Source of the DNA: a virus
Virus record (IMG/VR): IMGVR_UViG_3300027771_000023
Location: 1 to 50,882 of that record
DNA length: 50,882 bases
Reading direction: 5' to 3' (one strand)
Below the pieces are notes generated by a model, which ran no database searches, was not told the origin of the DNA, and was given only the letters and a program-made list of their open reading frames with translations. Shown piece after piece: positions 21,169 to 36,238 of this stretch. Every line of letters begins with the position of its first letter. Positions within the stretch are counted from its first letter, which is position 1. Made by a program: the position numbers and the translations under genes.

Positions 21169-21197
21169 AGTATACAGTATAAACTGGGTGTTGTCAA
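21169..21197 (-). promoter_or_regulatory. Sigma-70 early promoter for Sm-like gene
   Basis: Minus strand: TTGACA (21192-21197), 17-bp spacer, TATACT (21169-21174). It lies between the cmoA-like gene and the Sm-like gene. Confidence 0.82.
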
Positions 21198-21220: not shown

Positions 21221-21916
21221 TCATTTTACTGCCATTGCTCCTACGAACATATGATTTCTCCAAAAAGGTTGGACATCCACAAACCCAGCAGCATACAACA
21301 TGTTACTTAATTCATTCCAAGTGTTTGGTTTCATCATATGCCGTAATGTTCTTTCTTTGTCCATAATATCTTCTGTATCAAAAGACTGTCTCTTATAATC
21401 ATAATAGTTGAATGTAAGCATATCTTGGAATACTGCATTCTCACAGATTGTCTTTTCTGAAAAGATAAAGGCCCCACCATCATTTAACCCATCATATATG
21501 GTTTTTAAAACTGTAAGTCTATCTCTTTTTGGCATAAATTGTAAAGTAAAGATAGACGTTACAAGAGATGCGTTTTCAATAGTTGTGTTACGAATATCCT
21601 CCAATCGAAAATCTACAGAACACCAAGGATGTAATTCGGCTAACAAACCTTTGCGTTCTTCTAAATCATCAAAAAAACCTTCGGCAATTTCAACTCCAAT
21701 GTAGTTTGCATCACAACAGTGATCTTGGTTAGCCTCCAACATACGTTGTGTTAGTTTACCAGTTGAACACCCAATGTCATATACATTAGTTCCGTCTTCA
21801 ACAAAGTAACGGGACATTGCAATTACATCTTCTAGAAGATTACCATAGCCACGAATACTCTTTTCGATGTGTTCATCAAAACCTTCTTCTCTGTGTGCAA
21901 ATGTAAAATCAGCCAT
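21221..21916 (-). CDS. cmoA: CmoA-like carboxy-S-adenosyl-L-methionine synthase
   Basis: 231 aa. E. coli CmoA converts SAM and prephenate to carboxy-SAM (CxSAM). The match to CmoA as I remember it runs the whole length: FDEHIEKSIRGYGN (E. coli: IQRSVPGYSN), NVYDIGCS (45-51), DIRNTTIENASLV, FTLQFMPKRDR, YDGLNDGGAFIFSEK (141-155), YDYKRQS and a later KERTL (187-191), which may supply the CmoA carboxylate-binding Arg. This pattern separates it from ordinary SAM methyltransferases. The start is ATG 21916 (MADFTF), with GGAGAAG upstream; a longer frame from 21955 lacks a good site. It overlaps the DNA methyltransferase stop by 8 nt. No CmoB partner is visible, so the product may serve DNA rather than tRNA modification (inference). 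Confidence 0.88.
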   Translation of the reverse strand: MADFTFAHREEGFDEHIEKSIRGYGNLLEDVIAMSRYFVEDGTNVYDIGCSTGKLTQRMLEANQDHCCDANYIGVEIAEGFFDDLEERKGLLAELHPWCSVDFRLEDIRNTTIENASLVTSIFTLQFMPKRDRLTVLKTIYDGLNDGGAFIFSEKTICENAVFQDMLTFNYYDYKRQSFDTEDIMDKERTLRHMMKPNTWNELSNMLYAAGFVDVQPFWRNHMFVGAMAVK

Positions 21917-23105
21917 TATACTTCTCCAATACTTTTTCATAAACGGATGTTGCAATTGCCTTCATCATTAGTGGCGGCACCATCCTACCAATTCGTTCTG
22001 CCTTCTGATTCCACTTACCTGTAAGTTTGAAATCATCTGGTAGAGACATAATTCTTTTCAATTCACCTAGTGTTAACTTTCTTGGTTCAATCCAATGGAA
22101 TGCCCCAGCAGTTGTATCTGCACTACCCATTGCAGTCAGAGTTGGAGCTGGTGCGTATTGTGACACACGTTTCAGATTGAAGTGATGTCCTTTAGGATGA
22201 TAATCACCACCAGTGAGAACTTTCTCTGGGTCAATTGGCATCTTACTTCCTGTCTGTTTCCAGTATGCAGTATTAGTAAACTTCTCTGTTAGATACTTCA
22301 CCTCTTCTGCATCATATTCCAAACCAACCATCACATCCTTGACAGGTATAACTATATTACTTGGGTCTGGGAATAGTGTTGATAGTGACATAAAGTTTAA
22401 TCCAATAGAAGATAAAACGTCTTGTCTAACTGCAATAAAAATAACCCTTGATCTAGTTTGTGAAACACCATAGTATCGACTATCTAAAACTTGGGCGCAC
22501 ACCTCATATCCAATCTCTTCAAATGTATTAAGAATTTTGTTGAAATATGTCTTGGCCTCACCTATAGTCAATCCTTTTACATTCTCTGCAATAATTACTT
22601 TAGGTTTAATTTCTTCAGCAATACGCAAGAACTCAAAGAACAAGTCTTCAATGTTTTCTACTGTCTTCCCGTCAGAATAGTTTTTAGTTTGATTCCAACC
22701 ATCAGAATGTTTACCACTTACCTTTTCGATTGTAACATTACCAAACAAGTCTATACGTTCTTCTTCATGTATATTGTGTGACAATTTCCCTGCGACACTA
22801 AATGCAGAACATGGGGGTGACCCATCAAGTATGTCTAACTCACCAACACCAATACCAGCTGCATCAAGGAAATCTTTACCAGACAGTTCCTTGATATCGT
22901 CTGGTAATATTACAGTGTCAGGATAGTTCTCAGCATATGTGTTCCGCCCCTCCAGCACGAACTCATTTGCCACAAGGACTTTACCCCCTGCAAGTTTATA
23001 ACCACAGGATGAACCGCCCCCACCAGAAAATGTTGATATCACAGTAAATTTGTTTTGTGCAGACGCATCATATACGTCTTGTAGGTTATAAGGTACATAT
23101 TTCAT
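21909..23105 (-). CDS. C5-cytosine DNA methyltransferase with Arg in motif X (candidate carboxymethyltransferase)
   Basis: 398 aa. All C5-MTase motifs are present: I ISTFSGGGGSS (24-33), IV DGSPPCSAFS (94-103, catalytic Cys99), VI IIAENVKGL (ENV 174-176), VIII SQTRSRVIF (QxRxR, 216-220), a target-recognition region at about 230-345, and motif X RIGRMVPPLMMKAI. In ordinary enzymes motif X reads G-N-x-V-P; here the Asn is Arg374 (codon AGG, 21984-21986). Asn to Lys/Arg at this position is the change I recall making a CpG enzyme accept carboxy-SAM. With cmoA next door, the likely product is 5-carboxymethylcytosine (inference). It overlaps both neighbours. An ordinary methylase against restriction remains the alternative. 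Confidence 0.93.
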   Translation of the reverse strand: MKYVPYNLQDVYDASAQNKFTVISTFSGGGGSSCGYKLAGGKVLVANEFVLEGRNTYAENYPDTVILPDDIKELSGKDFLDAAGIGVGELDILDGSPPCSAFSVAGKLSHNIHEEERIDLFGNVTIEKVSGKHSDGWNQTKNYSDGKTVENIEDLFFEFLRIAEEIKPKVIIAENVKGLTIGEAKTYFNKILNTFEEIGYEVCAQVLDSRYYGVSQTRSRVIFIAVRQDVLSSIGLNFMSLSTLFPDPSNIVIPVKDVMVGLEYDAEEVKYLTEKFTNTAYWKQTGSKMPIDPEKVLTGGDYHPKGHHFNLKRVSQYAPAPTLTAMGSADTTAGAFHWIEPRKLTLGELKRIMSLPDDFKLTGKWNQKAERIGRMVPPLMMKAIATSVYEKVLEKYNG

Positions 23106-23920
23106 ACAAAAAACTCCTCTAAAGTGTCCTTACTATTTAGCGTGTTCCAATCTCTACATATGTCCATTATTCTACTCCTGTTCTTAAAGTTTACTGTCGG
23201 ATCATCTATCAATGATTCGAATAACTCTATTATACCAGAATCTATCTGTAAATTCAAGTGGTTTTTCACTTTTCCTATCAATTTAAATTCATCAAACGCA
23301 TTCCTTACATGGTGCTTCTGAAAGGGTTTATTCAATTCATCCCAACTCTTACTATAGAAAAACTTCTTAACACTATCCGTTAAGTATGGTGTAATGAACT
23401 TTTTGTTATGTGAGTCTGAAACTTTTCGATGCTGCAAATAGCCAGCACAATTCTCAGGCAGAAAATAATTATCTCTAAACTTGTCAAACAATTCTTGTGT
23501 ATGTTTGAAATGCATCATTGCCTTTTTACTGAGACCATAATACCCATCAGCGGCCCAGCCTGACAAAACTTCCGTTTCCTCTATTTGACCATACGCATAT
23601 AGAAATGGATATACACACTCAAAATGGGTCTTCTTTCTAGAGCCCAATTTTACTAGTCTATGGAAATCTTCAACCAGATTATTAGTTGGAACTTTGATGC
23701 CTGTAAATTCCCACTTACAAATTTCAGCAATCTCTTTTGCCTTTATGTAGTCATATGACTCATGCGTATCTAAGCAAAAGCTATATGCGTGAATTATTTT
23801 ACCTAATCTTTGTGCAGCGAATGCTACTGAAATTGAGTCAGCACCGCCAGAAAGCAGCACTGCACATTTGTCAGAATCAGATACTTTACTAATTTCATTT
23901 TCTAACAGTTTGTCAATCAT
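23102..23920 (-). CDS. Asparagine-synthase-like PP-loop ATPase without glutaminase domain
   Basis: 272 aa. PP-loop CAVLLSGGADSISVAFA (SGGADS at 24-29) and the AsnB-type second motif LSGWAADGYYGLSKKAM (119-135), then ITPYLTDSVKKFFYS and FQKHHVRNAF, which match the C-terminal synthetase domain of asparagine synthase. The N-terminal Cys-nucleophile glutaminase domain is absent, so ammonia must come from elsewhere. The known chemistry of the family is ATP activation of a carboxylate to acyl-AMP and amidation. In this operon a carboxylate on the base would be a natural substrate, giving 5-carbamoylmethylcytosine (inference). It overlaps both neighbours by ATGA. tRNA-type or queuosine-type PP-loop enzymes are less similar. 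Confidence 0.8.
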   Translation of the reverse strand: MIDKLLENEISKVSDSDKCAVLLSGGADSISVAFAAQRLGKIIHAYSFCLDTHESYDYIKAKEIAEICKWEFTGIKVPTNNLVEDFHRLVKLGSRKKTHFECVYPFLYAYGQIEETEVLSGWAADGYYGLSKKAMMHFKHTQELFDKFRDNYFLPENCAGYLQHRKVSDSHNKKFITPYLTDSVKKFFYSKSWDELNKPFQKHHVRNAFDEFKLIGKVKNHLNLQIDSGIIELFESLIDDPTVNFKNRSRIMDICRDWNTLNSKDTLEEFFV

Positions 23921-25002
23921 ATATCAAGACGTTCCCATGGCTTCCCATCAATACCAACAAGATCAATCTCTTTAGCAGTACCTTCATCATTATTAATTCT
24001 TTCTACATCTTGAGCAAAGAAACCATTAAAAGTTAAAGGAAATCTTCCCTTACTTCTTGTTTCAACTTCAGATATTGGCATATCAATATAATATGAAACC
24101 CATTTATTAAACATAGGTTCCATACGATCAAATTCTTCACATATTTCTTTACGTTTAATATCAAGAGTTTTAGGATTGGGTTCATCAACCCAAGTCGTGA
24201 GATATACCTTTTGAAAACTATTCTTTACACTTAAAGTCATTCCATCCCAAAAAAAGTTTTTCAATGCAGTAAACTTTCGAGCATAACCAAAAGATGTAGT
24301 CTTTTCGTTCTTCATACCCTCAAATGGTAGATTTAATCTTGTGGCTTCTTTCTTTGCTCGACTTGTACTCAATGCTTTCATAGTAGACCAACGAGAGATG
24401 TGTTCTTTACGAAGCGTTTTTAAGATAGGTTCGTGCCATTTGGGTTTGCTACGACATATTAGTTCAAGGTATTTGAGGATTGCCTCATCAGTATCTACAA
24501 TGAGGTTACTAACAACAGCATTAACTACAGACTTTAAGATAGTAGTTTTGGAATTTGCAACCGCTGGTGCATTGTGTTCTTCATCATCATTAGAATTACA
24601 TTTGAAAACCTCAAGCTTCATTTCTGTATCATACTCAACTATATCATAAATTGCAGTTTCCCAACTAAGCCTGTCTTGAGCAGCATTTCTTCCATAACCA
24701 ACTATTCCTTTAAACATTTTAGGATCATCTTTATCTACAATAATTGCTTGTGGTGGTTTTGTATACAAAAACCCTACATTTGAATAAGAGTTCTCTATTC
24801 CATCAACACGTTCTTCACCAGAATCTTCTTCACGAATTTGTTCTGAAATTTTGAATGACACTTTAGAACGATTTAATACAAGACGTTTCTTAAATGTAAT
24901 GCCGGGGAACAATGGTTTCCCATCAGTTCCTAATTGCATATAGTACATTTCTGGTGGACATTCTCTAAGCGACCTATCTAGGTCAAACTGTATTTTAGTC
25001 AT
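23917..25002 (-). CDS. ParB/Srx-fold-like protein, first gene of the modification operon
   Basis: 361 aa from ATG 25002, placed after a strong AAGGAGGA site; the longer frame starts inside the leader. Residues about 80-160 resemble a ParB-type domain: PPQAIIVD, then GIVGYGRNAAQDRLSW (the G-x-x-R-x-x-A core, Arg105), AIYDIVEYD, and NDDEEHNAPAVANSK. The remainder (about 165-361) is helical and unassigned. ParB-fold proteins use CTP or ATP, or act as nucleases or kinases; phage members occur near DNA-modification genes. Possible roles: DNA specificity, a nucleotide-dependent step, or regulation. The match is by eye and moderate. Confidence 0.6.
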   Translation of the reverse strand: MTKIQFDLDRSLRECPPEMYYMQLGTDGKPLFPGITFKKRLVLNRSKVSFKISEQIREEDSGEERVDGIENSYSNVGFLYTKPPQAIIVDKDDPKMFKGIVGYGRNAAQDRLSWETAIYDIVEYDTEMKLEVFKCNSNDDEEHNAPAVANSKTTILKSVVNAVVSNLIVDTDEAILKYLELICRSKPKWHEPILKTLRKEHISRWSTMKALSTSRAKKEATRLNLPFEGMKNEKTTSFGYARKFTALKNFFWDGMTLSVKNSFQKVYLTTWVDEPNPKTLDIKRKEICEEFDRMEPMFNKWVSYYIDMPISEVETRSKGRFPLTFNGFFAQDVERINNDEGTAKEIDLVGIDGKPWERLDI

Positions 25003-25026
25003 ATTTTCCTCCTTATTGGTTATGAC

Positions 25027-25047
25027 AAGGTAGTAATATACTACCTT
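25027..25047 (-). promoter_or_regulatory. Palindromic leader element of the modification operon
   Basis: Minus strand AAGGTAGTA-TAT-TACTACCTT: a perfect 9-bp inverted repeat with a 3-nt centre, between the promoter and the ribosome site. There is no T run. It may be a repressor operator or an RNA hairpin controlling translation. Confidence 0.65.
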
Positions 25048-25082
25048 CTTGGTAATAAAAGAAATATTCAATTATTACAGTT

Positions 25083-25111
25083 ATTATACTACTTTTTAGC
25101 GCCCCTGTCAA
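25083..25111 (-). promoter_or_regulatory. Sigma-70 early promoter of the modification operon
   Basis: Minus strand: TTGACA (25106-25111), 17-bp spacer, TATAAT (25083-25088); both hexamers are perfect. It lies between the polymerase stop and the ParB-like gene, so the four-gene operon can be expressed early and apart from gene 43. Confidence 0.9.
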
Positions 25112-25116
25112 GAGGT

Positions 25117-27648
25117 TTATCCAAAAAAGTCTTCTAATGTTGTTTGTGTTCCATAAGAACGATCTATATCCCATCCAATCTGATTCATAATAAAAGTCAA
25201 AGGTTCTACGAAGGCCTTGGCATACTGCGTATCATAATCTATATAACGATGAATATCAAACTCTGGTGGAAGTTTAGTTATAAAGGATATAACATTTGAT
25301 GACATAGGATTAGGAGTTCTCAAGTGAATGAACTTAATCTTTTCTCCGCCTTTGATAAGAGGATACTTGTGTGTCAGTTTATTCTTCTTGGCAAAATGAT
25401 TGTATAGCAGACTTCCACGACAGTGCATGGGAACACCCTTCAGAAAAATACTGGAACTACTACTCCATTTATCAAGTCCATTAACAGAACGAGGAAATGC
25501 AATGTCTTCTACTGGTAACTTCATAAACTCTTCTCTGAAGTCAATGATGAAATCGTTCACATCTTGTTCTGTACCAGACATGATAATCTTTAGACACTCT
25601 TTAAGTTTACTACGACAAGGTGCTGGTGTACTACTTTTGACCGCCTCCACGCCCATTATTTTGAGTTTAGGTTCTTGGTAACGTACACCTTCCATATCCC
25701 ATACATTTAAGATGTACCGCTTCTTTGCAGTCCAGATACCTTTGTCGGCAATTGCCTCCCGTCCCATTTCCATCTTCTGGCGATAGGCATTTACATATGT
25801 AGCAAGGTCTTGATAACATGAATCAATAAAAGGTTCGATTTTCTCTTTAGCAATCTTATCAAGGAAGTCAACCACCCTGAGTCGATATGAATCCTCTGAC
25901 TCAGCATCTCTCTTCGTAAGCACCTTACTAACAAGTTCATCAAACCTAATGTACACCGAATCTGTATCTGATGCAATGACATAATCCACTCCTTCACTTT
26001 TCAGCAGTTTATTCAAGTAACCATTCAGTGCCTTTTCAATCCACCGAATAGCTAGTTGGCCAGAAGTTGTAATACCTTCTGCAATCTTTAAATCATAATA
26101 CCTAAACCATTCATTACCAATCGCACCATAAGCAGAGTTCAAGGAAATCTTTCGTGCCATCTGGATGTTCTTAAAACGAGATACATCGTTTAGGTACTTA
26201 GAGTCTTTAGTATCTTCATATTGTTGTTGAGCAACCAACATCTTCTTTTTATAGATAGTACGATCATTGTACATCTCTTGCATTATCTCAGGTAAGAACC
26301 CTTGTTTCTTTGTTCTGAACAATGCACCATTTGGTGTCCGAGTAACTTGTGCGGCTGGTAACATAGACAAGTCTATCTTTTTTTCCAACATGTCATCAAT
26401 AGTATTGTCGTTGTAAGGCATAGACTGAGGCATCAACATCTCTGGTGAAATATTGTATTGCATAATCAGGTGAGGATACAGTGAGTTCAAGTCAAAAGAC
26501 ATTACCCATTTATGCTGTCCAACCTGTGGGTCTTTGACATATGCACCAACATATTTCTCACCCTTAGATTCGCTTCTTGGTTTTGTTGGGATAACAATCT
26601 TCTTTCGTAGAAGATGGTTGTAAATCAACACATCCCAATACTTAACTGAAGTGAATGCATCAGACATATTAACCTTAGCCTCATACGTCATAGTAAGAAG
26701 TAAGTCAATCAACTTCATTTTAGAGTCGAGTCTATCAACCAATTCAACGTCCATAATGTTGTAGTCAATAAAAGATTGATAGTCTTTCTGATACCAATCA
26801 CTGAATGTATCGTAGGGATTTTCATCCTTACGTTGTCCAAGTTCGACATGAGCAATGTGGTCAAGACGATACGACTCTTGGTTTGTGTATGTGAATTTCT
26901 TGTACAGTTGTAGGTAGTCAAGATTATTGACACCTAAGATTTCAAACATTTCTGTCTTCTTACCAAACCCACTGTTCACCATGCGTGACTGAACAACACC
27001 CCAAGGAGATAGACGTTTGACAGCCTCTTCACCTAACTGGGAAGTTATTCGGTTGCAGATGTAGGGAAGGTCAAAGAACTCTGTGTTCCAACCAGTAATA
27101 ATATCAGGATGATCTGCATCCCACCATCCAAGGAACCTTGCAAGAAGGTCACGTTCAGTAGGACAATGAATATAATCTACATCATCCCTACTGTTTTTGT
27201 AGGGATGCATACCCCATACGATAAACTTGCCAGTGCTGTGGTCTTTGACAGTGATAGACAGCATTGGTTCTGCTGCTTGGTCTGCATGGGGGAATCCGTT
27301 CTCACATTCCACCTCAATATCTATCGTGACAATCTTCAGTTGTTTTGAATCAAATTCAATTTGTCTTGGATACTTTTCAGATAGATATGTGTAAGGGAAT
27401 TGGTTCATTCCATACACAAGATGTGGTTGAGACTGATACTGTTCAATAAATGATTTCGCCTCCTTAATAGAAAGGAACTTCATTGGATTGACGTTTTTAT
27501 CGTCTAAGGTTTTCCAACCAGTTTCTTTCTGTACAGGAACGTAGAGAGTAGGCTCGTACTTCACTTTAAAGTTAGTACGAACACCATTCTCTACGGCACG
27601 AACAAGCAGTTGATTGCCCCATTGGGCAACGTGTGTGTAAAAGTTCAA
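25117..27648 (-). CDS. 43: Family B DNA polymerase (T4 gp43)
   Basis: 843 aa. The exonuclease domain has TIDIEVE; polymerase motif A is SLYPHLIMQYNIS, motif B KISLNSAYGAIGN, motif C ASDTDSVYI. The C-terminus TTLEDFFG is a sliding-clamp-binding peptide. Replicates the phage genome with clamp 45 and loader 44/62. The start is placed at TTG 27648 ((M)NFYTH) with GAGG upstream, because related polymerases open this way and no ATG exists nearby; a TTG six codons earlier is the alternative. There is no sign of inteins or introns. It is transcribed from the promoter at 27675-27703. Confidence 0.95.
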   Translation of the reverse strand: MNFYTHVAQWGNQLLVRAVENGVRTNFKVKYEPTLYVPVQKETGWKTLDDKNVNPMKFLSIKEAKSFIEQYQSQPHLVYGMNQFPYTYLSEKYPRQIEFDSKQLKIVTIDIEVECENGFPHADQAAEPMLSITVKDHSTGKFIVWGMHPYKNSRDDVDYIHCPTERDLLARFLGWWDADHPDIITGWNTEFFDLPYICNRITSQLGEEAVKRLSPWGVVQSRMVNSGFGKKTEMFEILGVNNLDYLQLYKKFTYTNQESYRLDHIAHVELGQRKDENPYDTFSDWYQKDYQSFIDYNIMDVELVDRLDSKMKLIDLLLTMTYEAKVNMSDAFTSVKYWDVLIYNHLLRKKIVIPTKPRSESKGEKYVGAYVKDPQVGQHKWVMSFDLNSLYPHLIMQYNISPEMLMPQSMPYNDNTIDDMLEKKIDLSMLPAAQVTRTPNGALFRTKKQGFLPEIMQEMYNDRTIYKKKMLVAQQQYEDTKDSKYLNDVSRFKNIQMARKISLNSAYGAIGNEWFRYYDLKIAEGITTSGQLAIRWIEKALNGYLNKLLKSEGVDYVIASDTDSVYIRFDELVSKVLTKRDAESEDSYRLRVVDFLDKIAKEKIEPFIDSCYQDLATYVNAYRQKMEMGREAIADKGIWTAKKRYILNVWDMEGVRYQEPKLKIMGVEAVKSSTPAPCRSKLKECLKIIMSGTEQDVNDFIIDFREEFMKLPVEDIAFPRSVNGLDKWSSSSSIFLKGVPMHCRGSLLYNHFAKKNKLTHKYPLIKGGEKIKFIHLRTPNPMSSNVISFITKLPPEFDIHRYIDYDTQYAKAFVEPLTFIMNQIGWDIDRSYGTQTTLEDFFG

Positions 27649-27674
27649 ATGTATTACCTCAATCAATTAAGATC

Positions 27675-36209: not shown

Positions 36210-36238
36210 ATTATACTTTAATTACACAGGTTTGTCAA
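36210..36238 (-). promoter_or_regulatory. Sigma-70 early promoter for 55-47-46
   Basis: Minus strand: TTGACA (36233-36238), 17-bp spacer, TATAAT (36210-36215), both perfect. The 5' leader contains GTTGC / GCAAC, a 5-bp inverted repeat. Confidence 0.9.

Follow-up and report, generated by a model that had tools for sequence, protein, structure and literature searches.

A candidate cytosine carboxymethylation operon with a ParB-fold gene in a marine T4-like phage

The closest described system comprises CmoA, CmoX, and CmoY and was reported in Synechococcus phage S-B43 by Yang et al. (Nat Commun, 7 December 2025; PMC12783734). In this phage, CmoA is an active carboxy-SAM synthase, and the cytosine transferase SpCmoX produces 5-carboxymethylcytosine (5cxmC) in GC sites from carboxy-SAM only. 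The carboxylate is held by Arg350 of SpCmoX, with an R350N mutation leaving the enzyme dead. S-B43 CmoY ligates glycine, and the resulting 5gcxmC is present in phage DNA (PMC12783734). A survey in the same study found 5,615 candidate CmoX, 2,251 ligases, and 1,660 ParBc genes, some of the ligases featuring a glutaminase domain (PMC12783734). The engineered, CpG-specific M.MpeI N374K is similar in that the use of carboxy-SAM by a C5-methyltransferase is made possible by a positively charged residue at the corresponding site (PMC12783734), while the enzyme described below is natural and carries Arg. An earlier note on the present DNA had named an engineered enzyme as the nearest precedent; this is out of date, as the natural system has been in print since December 2025. 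Until then the route was absent from known natural systems, and it is here confirmed from raw sequence.

The window, meaning the whole stretch of DNA analysed, is an IMG/VR record of 50,882 bases with a T4-like gene set (polymerase, UvsX/RecA-type, helicase, clamp loader, RegA, terminase, and tail sheath genes), and the carrier of the operon is a marine T4-like phage. Just after the polymerase gene, on the minus strand, lie a ParB-like gene (ORF4), cmoY, cmoX, and cmoA, overlapping by 4, 4, and 8 nt. The coordinates (Table 1) bear out the earlier description of four overlapping genes behind one perfect sigma-70 promoter. The same three enzymes are found in S-B43, where CmoA, CmoX, and CmoY are 59% (over 99% of CmoA), 58%, and 48% identical to those of the window, and the two loci also have in common the diagnostic Arg, a glutaminase-free ligase, and a neighbourhood of replication genes with MazG. 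They differ in gene order, which is CmoA, CmoY, CmoX in S-B43, and in the ParB-like gene, which was not found in the S-B43 cluster. Furthermore, the window CmoX features an insertion after the catalytic loop that is missing from SpCmoX. While S-B43 infects Synechococcus, the window gp43 is closest to that of a methylotroph phage, with 77% identity to Methylophilales phage Melnitz as opposed to about 54% at most for cyanophage polymerases. The window operon is a further example of the published camouflage system and not a new kind of system. With it the 5cxmC route reaches a phage that, by its replication genes, is nearest to a marine methylotroph phage.

Table 1. Positions of the operon, its flanking features, and the second ligase of related loci (window positions unless a locus is named).
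Feature	Position	Strand	Remarks
CmoA, carboxy-SAM synthase homologue	21221..21916	-	ATG preceded by GGAG; TTG start at 21955 also open
CmoX, predicted DNA cytosine C5-carboxymethyltransferase	21909..23105	-	PF00145 1e-52; SPPC at residues 96-99; R374
CmoY, stand-alone PP-loop (SGGxDS) AMP-forming amide ligase	23102..23920	-	PF00733 1.5e-10; no glutaminase domain
ORF4, 361 aa, ParB-N/sulfiredoxin-type N-terminal fold (predicted)	23917..25002	-	ATG preceded by AGGAGG; fold at residues about 38-200
Sigma-70 promoter, TTGACA-17 nt-TATAAT	25083..25111	-	12/12 match; between DNA polymerase gene and ORF4
Promoter of next gene	21169..21197	-	near-perfect, 11/12; bounds operon downstream
Family B DNA polymerase (gp43)	25117..27666	-	directly upstream of operon; marks conserved genomic slot
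Second PP-loop ligase	L091:4299-5189, L092:1092-1982, L191:178-1068		overlaps CmoY start, in place of ParB-like gene
Second PP-loop ligase	L014:361-1380, L015:564-1583, L016:2916-3935		overlaps CmoY start, in place of ParB-like gene

The operon is real and not an assembly accident, because the same operon occurs in contig L008 with a single amino-acid difference, in CmoA, and because its genes are under purifying selection (dN/dS of about 0.06-0.20 for CmoX, CmoA, CmoY, and the ParB-like gene against relatives where dS is unsaturated). It is conserved across many viral contigs and appears functional by all sequence tests made. Perfect sigma-70 sites, defined as TTGACA and TATAAT with a spacer of 16-18 nt, occur 8 times in the window while 0.08 were expected from first-order Markov simulations, and the 8 sites are therefore very probably genuine phage promoters. 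They include minus-strand sites at 36238, 32458, 30865, 25111, 20814, and 19207. Many replication operons of this phage seem to run from near-ideal host promoters, and the perfection of the promoter is uninformative on what the enzymes of the operon do.

The operon very likely carboxymethylates cytosines of the phage DNA, with an amine cap added afterwards. In the proposed pathway, CmoA would convert SAM and host prephenate to carboxy-SAM. CmoX would flip a cytosine out of the helix, Cys99 would attack C6, and the carboxymethyl group would be moved to C5 to give 5-carboxymethylcytosine, with Arg374 holding the carboxylate of carboxy-SAM; the target would probably be GC dinucleotides, as for SpCmoX. 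CmoY may then join an amine to the carboxymethyl group, glycine being the first candidate, and the ParB-fold protein, which probably binds DNA and/or nucleotides, would assist the enzymes on phage DNA as an accessory. Resistance to host restriction is the likely benefit. The three enzyme steps have been shown biochemically in the S-B43 homologues and we infer them here from homology and conserved residues, as we infer the ParB step. Carboxymethylation from CmoA through carboxy-SAM and CmoX is well supported because the enzymes are homologous to those proven biochemically in S-B43 and the diagnostic Arg is present, and the earlier proposal that CmoA feeds carboxy-SAM to the methyltransferase is borne out by the same S-B43 homology and R374 (PMC12783734). 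The whole reading, in which CmoA, CmoX, a ligase, and a ParB-fold accessory hypermodify cytosine in the replicating DNA of the phage itself, is in our judgement likely. Enzymes of this kind provide site-selective chemical handles on DNA.

The window CmoY has 272 residues, and residues 1-267 of its predicted structure (pLDDT 91.9) match the synthetase domains of beta-lactam synthetase (Z 22.9) and human ASNS (Z 22.6). The motif residues common to SpCmoY and the family are kept (K96, K97, E101, D125, G126, K132, K133, R149, K202, R206, H221, and R250), and their retention speaks against a possible, if doubtful, variant of the same pathway in which CmoY attaches an amine other than glycine, either another amino acid or a polyamine. 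Such a variant would fit the identity of only 48% and the replacement of Ile and Cys of SpCmoY by W122 and S94, the former showing that the pocket is not identical. Ammonia is an unlikely amine, as is a final base of 5-carbamoylmethylcytosine. CmoY does have the asparagine synthetase fold, PP-loop synthetases that use free ammonia, such as NadE, exist, and a glutaminase-fused ligase occupies the same slot in relatives L129, L137, L142, and L146. However, the window enzyme aligns to the synthetase half only, an N-terminal class II glutaminase domain with Cys2 was found neither in it nor adjoining it, and it has SGWAADG where the glutaminase-fused relatives have the AsnB-type SGEGSDE. Its identity to the glycine ligase is also well over the clustering level of about 30% used in the survey (PMC12783734). 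The lack of a glutaminase together with the altered motif makes it likely, judging by sequence and model, that CmoY uses an amino acid, with glycine as first choice. Of the step suggested earlier for the PP-loop enzyme, ATP-dependent amide formation is therefore supported in kind, while plain amidation to 5-carbamoylmethylcytosine is not favoured, since the window ligase has no glutaminase and groups with the glycine ligase and since the glutaminase-fused ligase is found in separate relatives. Among these, L129 resembles Streptomyces phage TurkishDelight, and both resemble the window, in having a ParB-like gene, a CmoX with the Arg, and CmoA. Their ligase differs from that of the window in carrying an N-terminal glutamine amidotransferase domain (by annotation in TurkishDelight, by Pfam in L129), and for this reason it probably adds ammonia.

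For CmoX, the cofactor residues F25, E47, F48, and D69 of SpCmoX correspond to F26, E48, F49, and D70 of the window enzyme. R374 corresponds to the carboxylate-binding R350; it is invariant in the A4 alignment, and an equivalent Arg is kept in 128 of 130 related CmoX sequences. It is very improbable that this protein, despite belonging to a C5-methyltransferase superfamily of which many phages carry ordinary members, is a SAM-dependent 5mC methyltransferase beside a CmoA devoted to tRNA modification, given the presence of R374, a best match by far to crystallised SpCmoX (PDB 8YF3; 480 bits, E 3e-143) as opposed to only 58-74 bits for HhaI and HaeIII, the inability of SpCmoX to use SAM, the 8-nt overlap of cmoX with cmoA, and the finding that an Arg-less homologue, in Melnitz, stands in a genome without CmoA. 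A pattern-based scan of bacterial and archaeal genomes confirmed no relative of CmoX. PADLOC gave generic methyltransferase matches, and thus no defence system is claimed.

The window CmoA keeps the equivalents of Tyr39, Asp62, Gly64, Asp117, and Lys198. Against TIGR00740, which has a curated cut-off of 193.3 bits, it scores 120.5 bits (9e-35) and SpCmoA 115.6 bits; being below the cut-off, it is not classed with the bacterial enzyme of tRNA modification. In E. coli CmoA the carboxylate is bound by Arg199 (PMC3663124). This residue was considered as a diagnostic and rejected: Glu stands at this position in the window CmoA, in the proven SpCmoA, and altogether in 89 of 90 phage CmoAs, so it cannot support the call. 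With Arg199 absent and the score below the cut-off, the window CmoA is assigned by its resemblance to SpCmoA rather than to the bacterial enzyme.

The slot after the DNA polymerase also holds a homologous C5 transferase in Melnitz (L004:4010-6191), where Leu replaces the Arg and the adjoining gene encodes a TET/JBP oxygenase (PF12851, 3.6e-11, above cut-off) instead of CmoA, which was not found anywhere in the 141.5 kb genome. Phage TETs reportedly occur together with C5-methyltransferases (Burke et al. 2021, listed among the references of PMC11347163). In Melnitz the modification chemistry of this slot appears to have switched. More broadly, CmoA is present in the locus for 122 of 133 sequences with Arg (R-type) and for none of the 58 with Leu (L-type), whereas a TET/JBP-like gene accompanies 50 of the 58 L-type sequences; CmoA and a TET-like gene occur together at a single R-type locus, L130. 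On the tree of the two types a single change suffices, so the counts are not independent evidence. The pairing of R with CmoA and of L with TET is one event rather than 190 independent ones, consistent with the Arg rule but not proof of it. Several diverged phages (TurkishDelight, PaBG, AD1, and Mcat8) likewise combine R with CmoA. The association of a single Arg-to-Leu difference with the exchange of CmoA for a TET-like oxygenase as partner is testable. In two Staphylococcus phages (L179:4950-7468 and L181:5947-7646), CmoA lies beside a C5-methyltransferase that lacks Arg at the R350 column. This enzyme has GSPC in place of SPPC and possibly binds carboxy-SAM in another way; in L179, a CmoY-like gene lies between the two. 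In Dickeya phage AD1 (L168:2881-5010), the CmoX homologue seems to hold an intein inside SPPC, directly before the catalytic Cys, and would therefore be active only after splicing.

The ParB-like label given to ORF4 in the earlier note proved right by predicted structure; Pfam returned no match to ORF4 at E<=1, the gathering score of PF02195 was not reached, and only two of its relatives match that family, weakly (best E 0.006). In the AF2 model (pLDDT 74.7), the N-terminal domain superposes on KorB (Z 11.5, 139 residues aligned, rmsd 2.7) and on CTP/CDP-bound ParB (Z about 10.5, 94 aligned, rmsd 2.1), and as modelled it belongs to the ParB/sulfiredoxin fold superfamily. Two residues, G102 and R105, hardly vary within the family. 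Relatives were not recovered with a broad profile, since conserved stretches are lacking, and a narrower one found 7 loci. A distant relative in phage Sf-CH8 lies near 2OG-Fe(II) oxygenases in a genome in which no CmoA was found, and thus the role of ORF4 is probably not restricted to carboxymethyl chemistry.

A search for cmoA-dcm-asnB clusters, proposed earlier as a check, found them widely in viral contigs. Across 159 CmoX-family loci, in which some contigs are counted more than once owing to the overlap of two scans, the partners were CmoY and CmoA (77 loci), CmoA without a ligase (28, partly on truncated contigs), CmoY alone (19), ParB, CmoY, and CmoA (16), a second PP-loop ligase with CmoY and CmoA (7), ParB and CmoA (5), a glutaminase ligase and CmoA (5, L117 being only a fragment), ParB and CmoY (1), and none (1). 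The ligases differ even among the closest relatives of the window CmoX. In L091, L092, and L191 (CmoX 93% identical), the second ligase replaces the ParB-like gene; L129 (80%) has the glutaminase ligase; and in L009 (84%) the ParB-like gene directly precedes CmoX with no ligase between. The ligase slot, compared by sequence, is therefore swapped on a short time scale, and the tail on the base probably differs between close relatives as a result, which is testable. The second ligase features a GDGADTLLG motif, is closer to asparagine synthetase, and has no glutaminase; a search of its own placed it in such operons at 6 of 6 loci. With two ligases in tandem, the tail on the base could become longer. 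It is a tentative idea that the slot is a modular one for amide tails beside a constant CmoX-CmoA core, filled by a glycine-type ligase, a glutaminase-fused ligase, or a tandem pair. The window phage or its 93%-identical relatives would then carry undescribed tails, such as a glycyl tail with the second ligase capping its new carboxylate, and the ParB-fold protein would serve as a nucleotide-gated loader that other DNA-modification modules also use. The swapping of ligases and the Leu/TET slot of Melnitz go beyond the main text of the S-B43 study (PMC12783734).

Two further arrangements were seen among the relatives. Dickeya phage AD1 (L005:3156-5855) has a DUF1611 gene (PF07755) between cmoA and cmoY, which may supply or alter the amine. 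Several loci, including L040, L058, L079, and L081, have two complete tandem CmoX genes, both with the Arg, that may read different sequence contexts.
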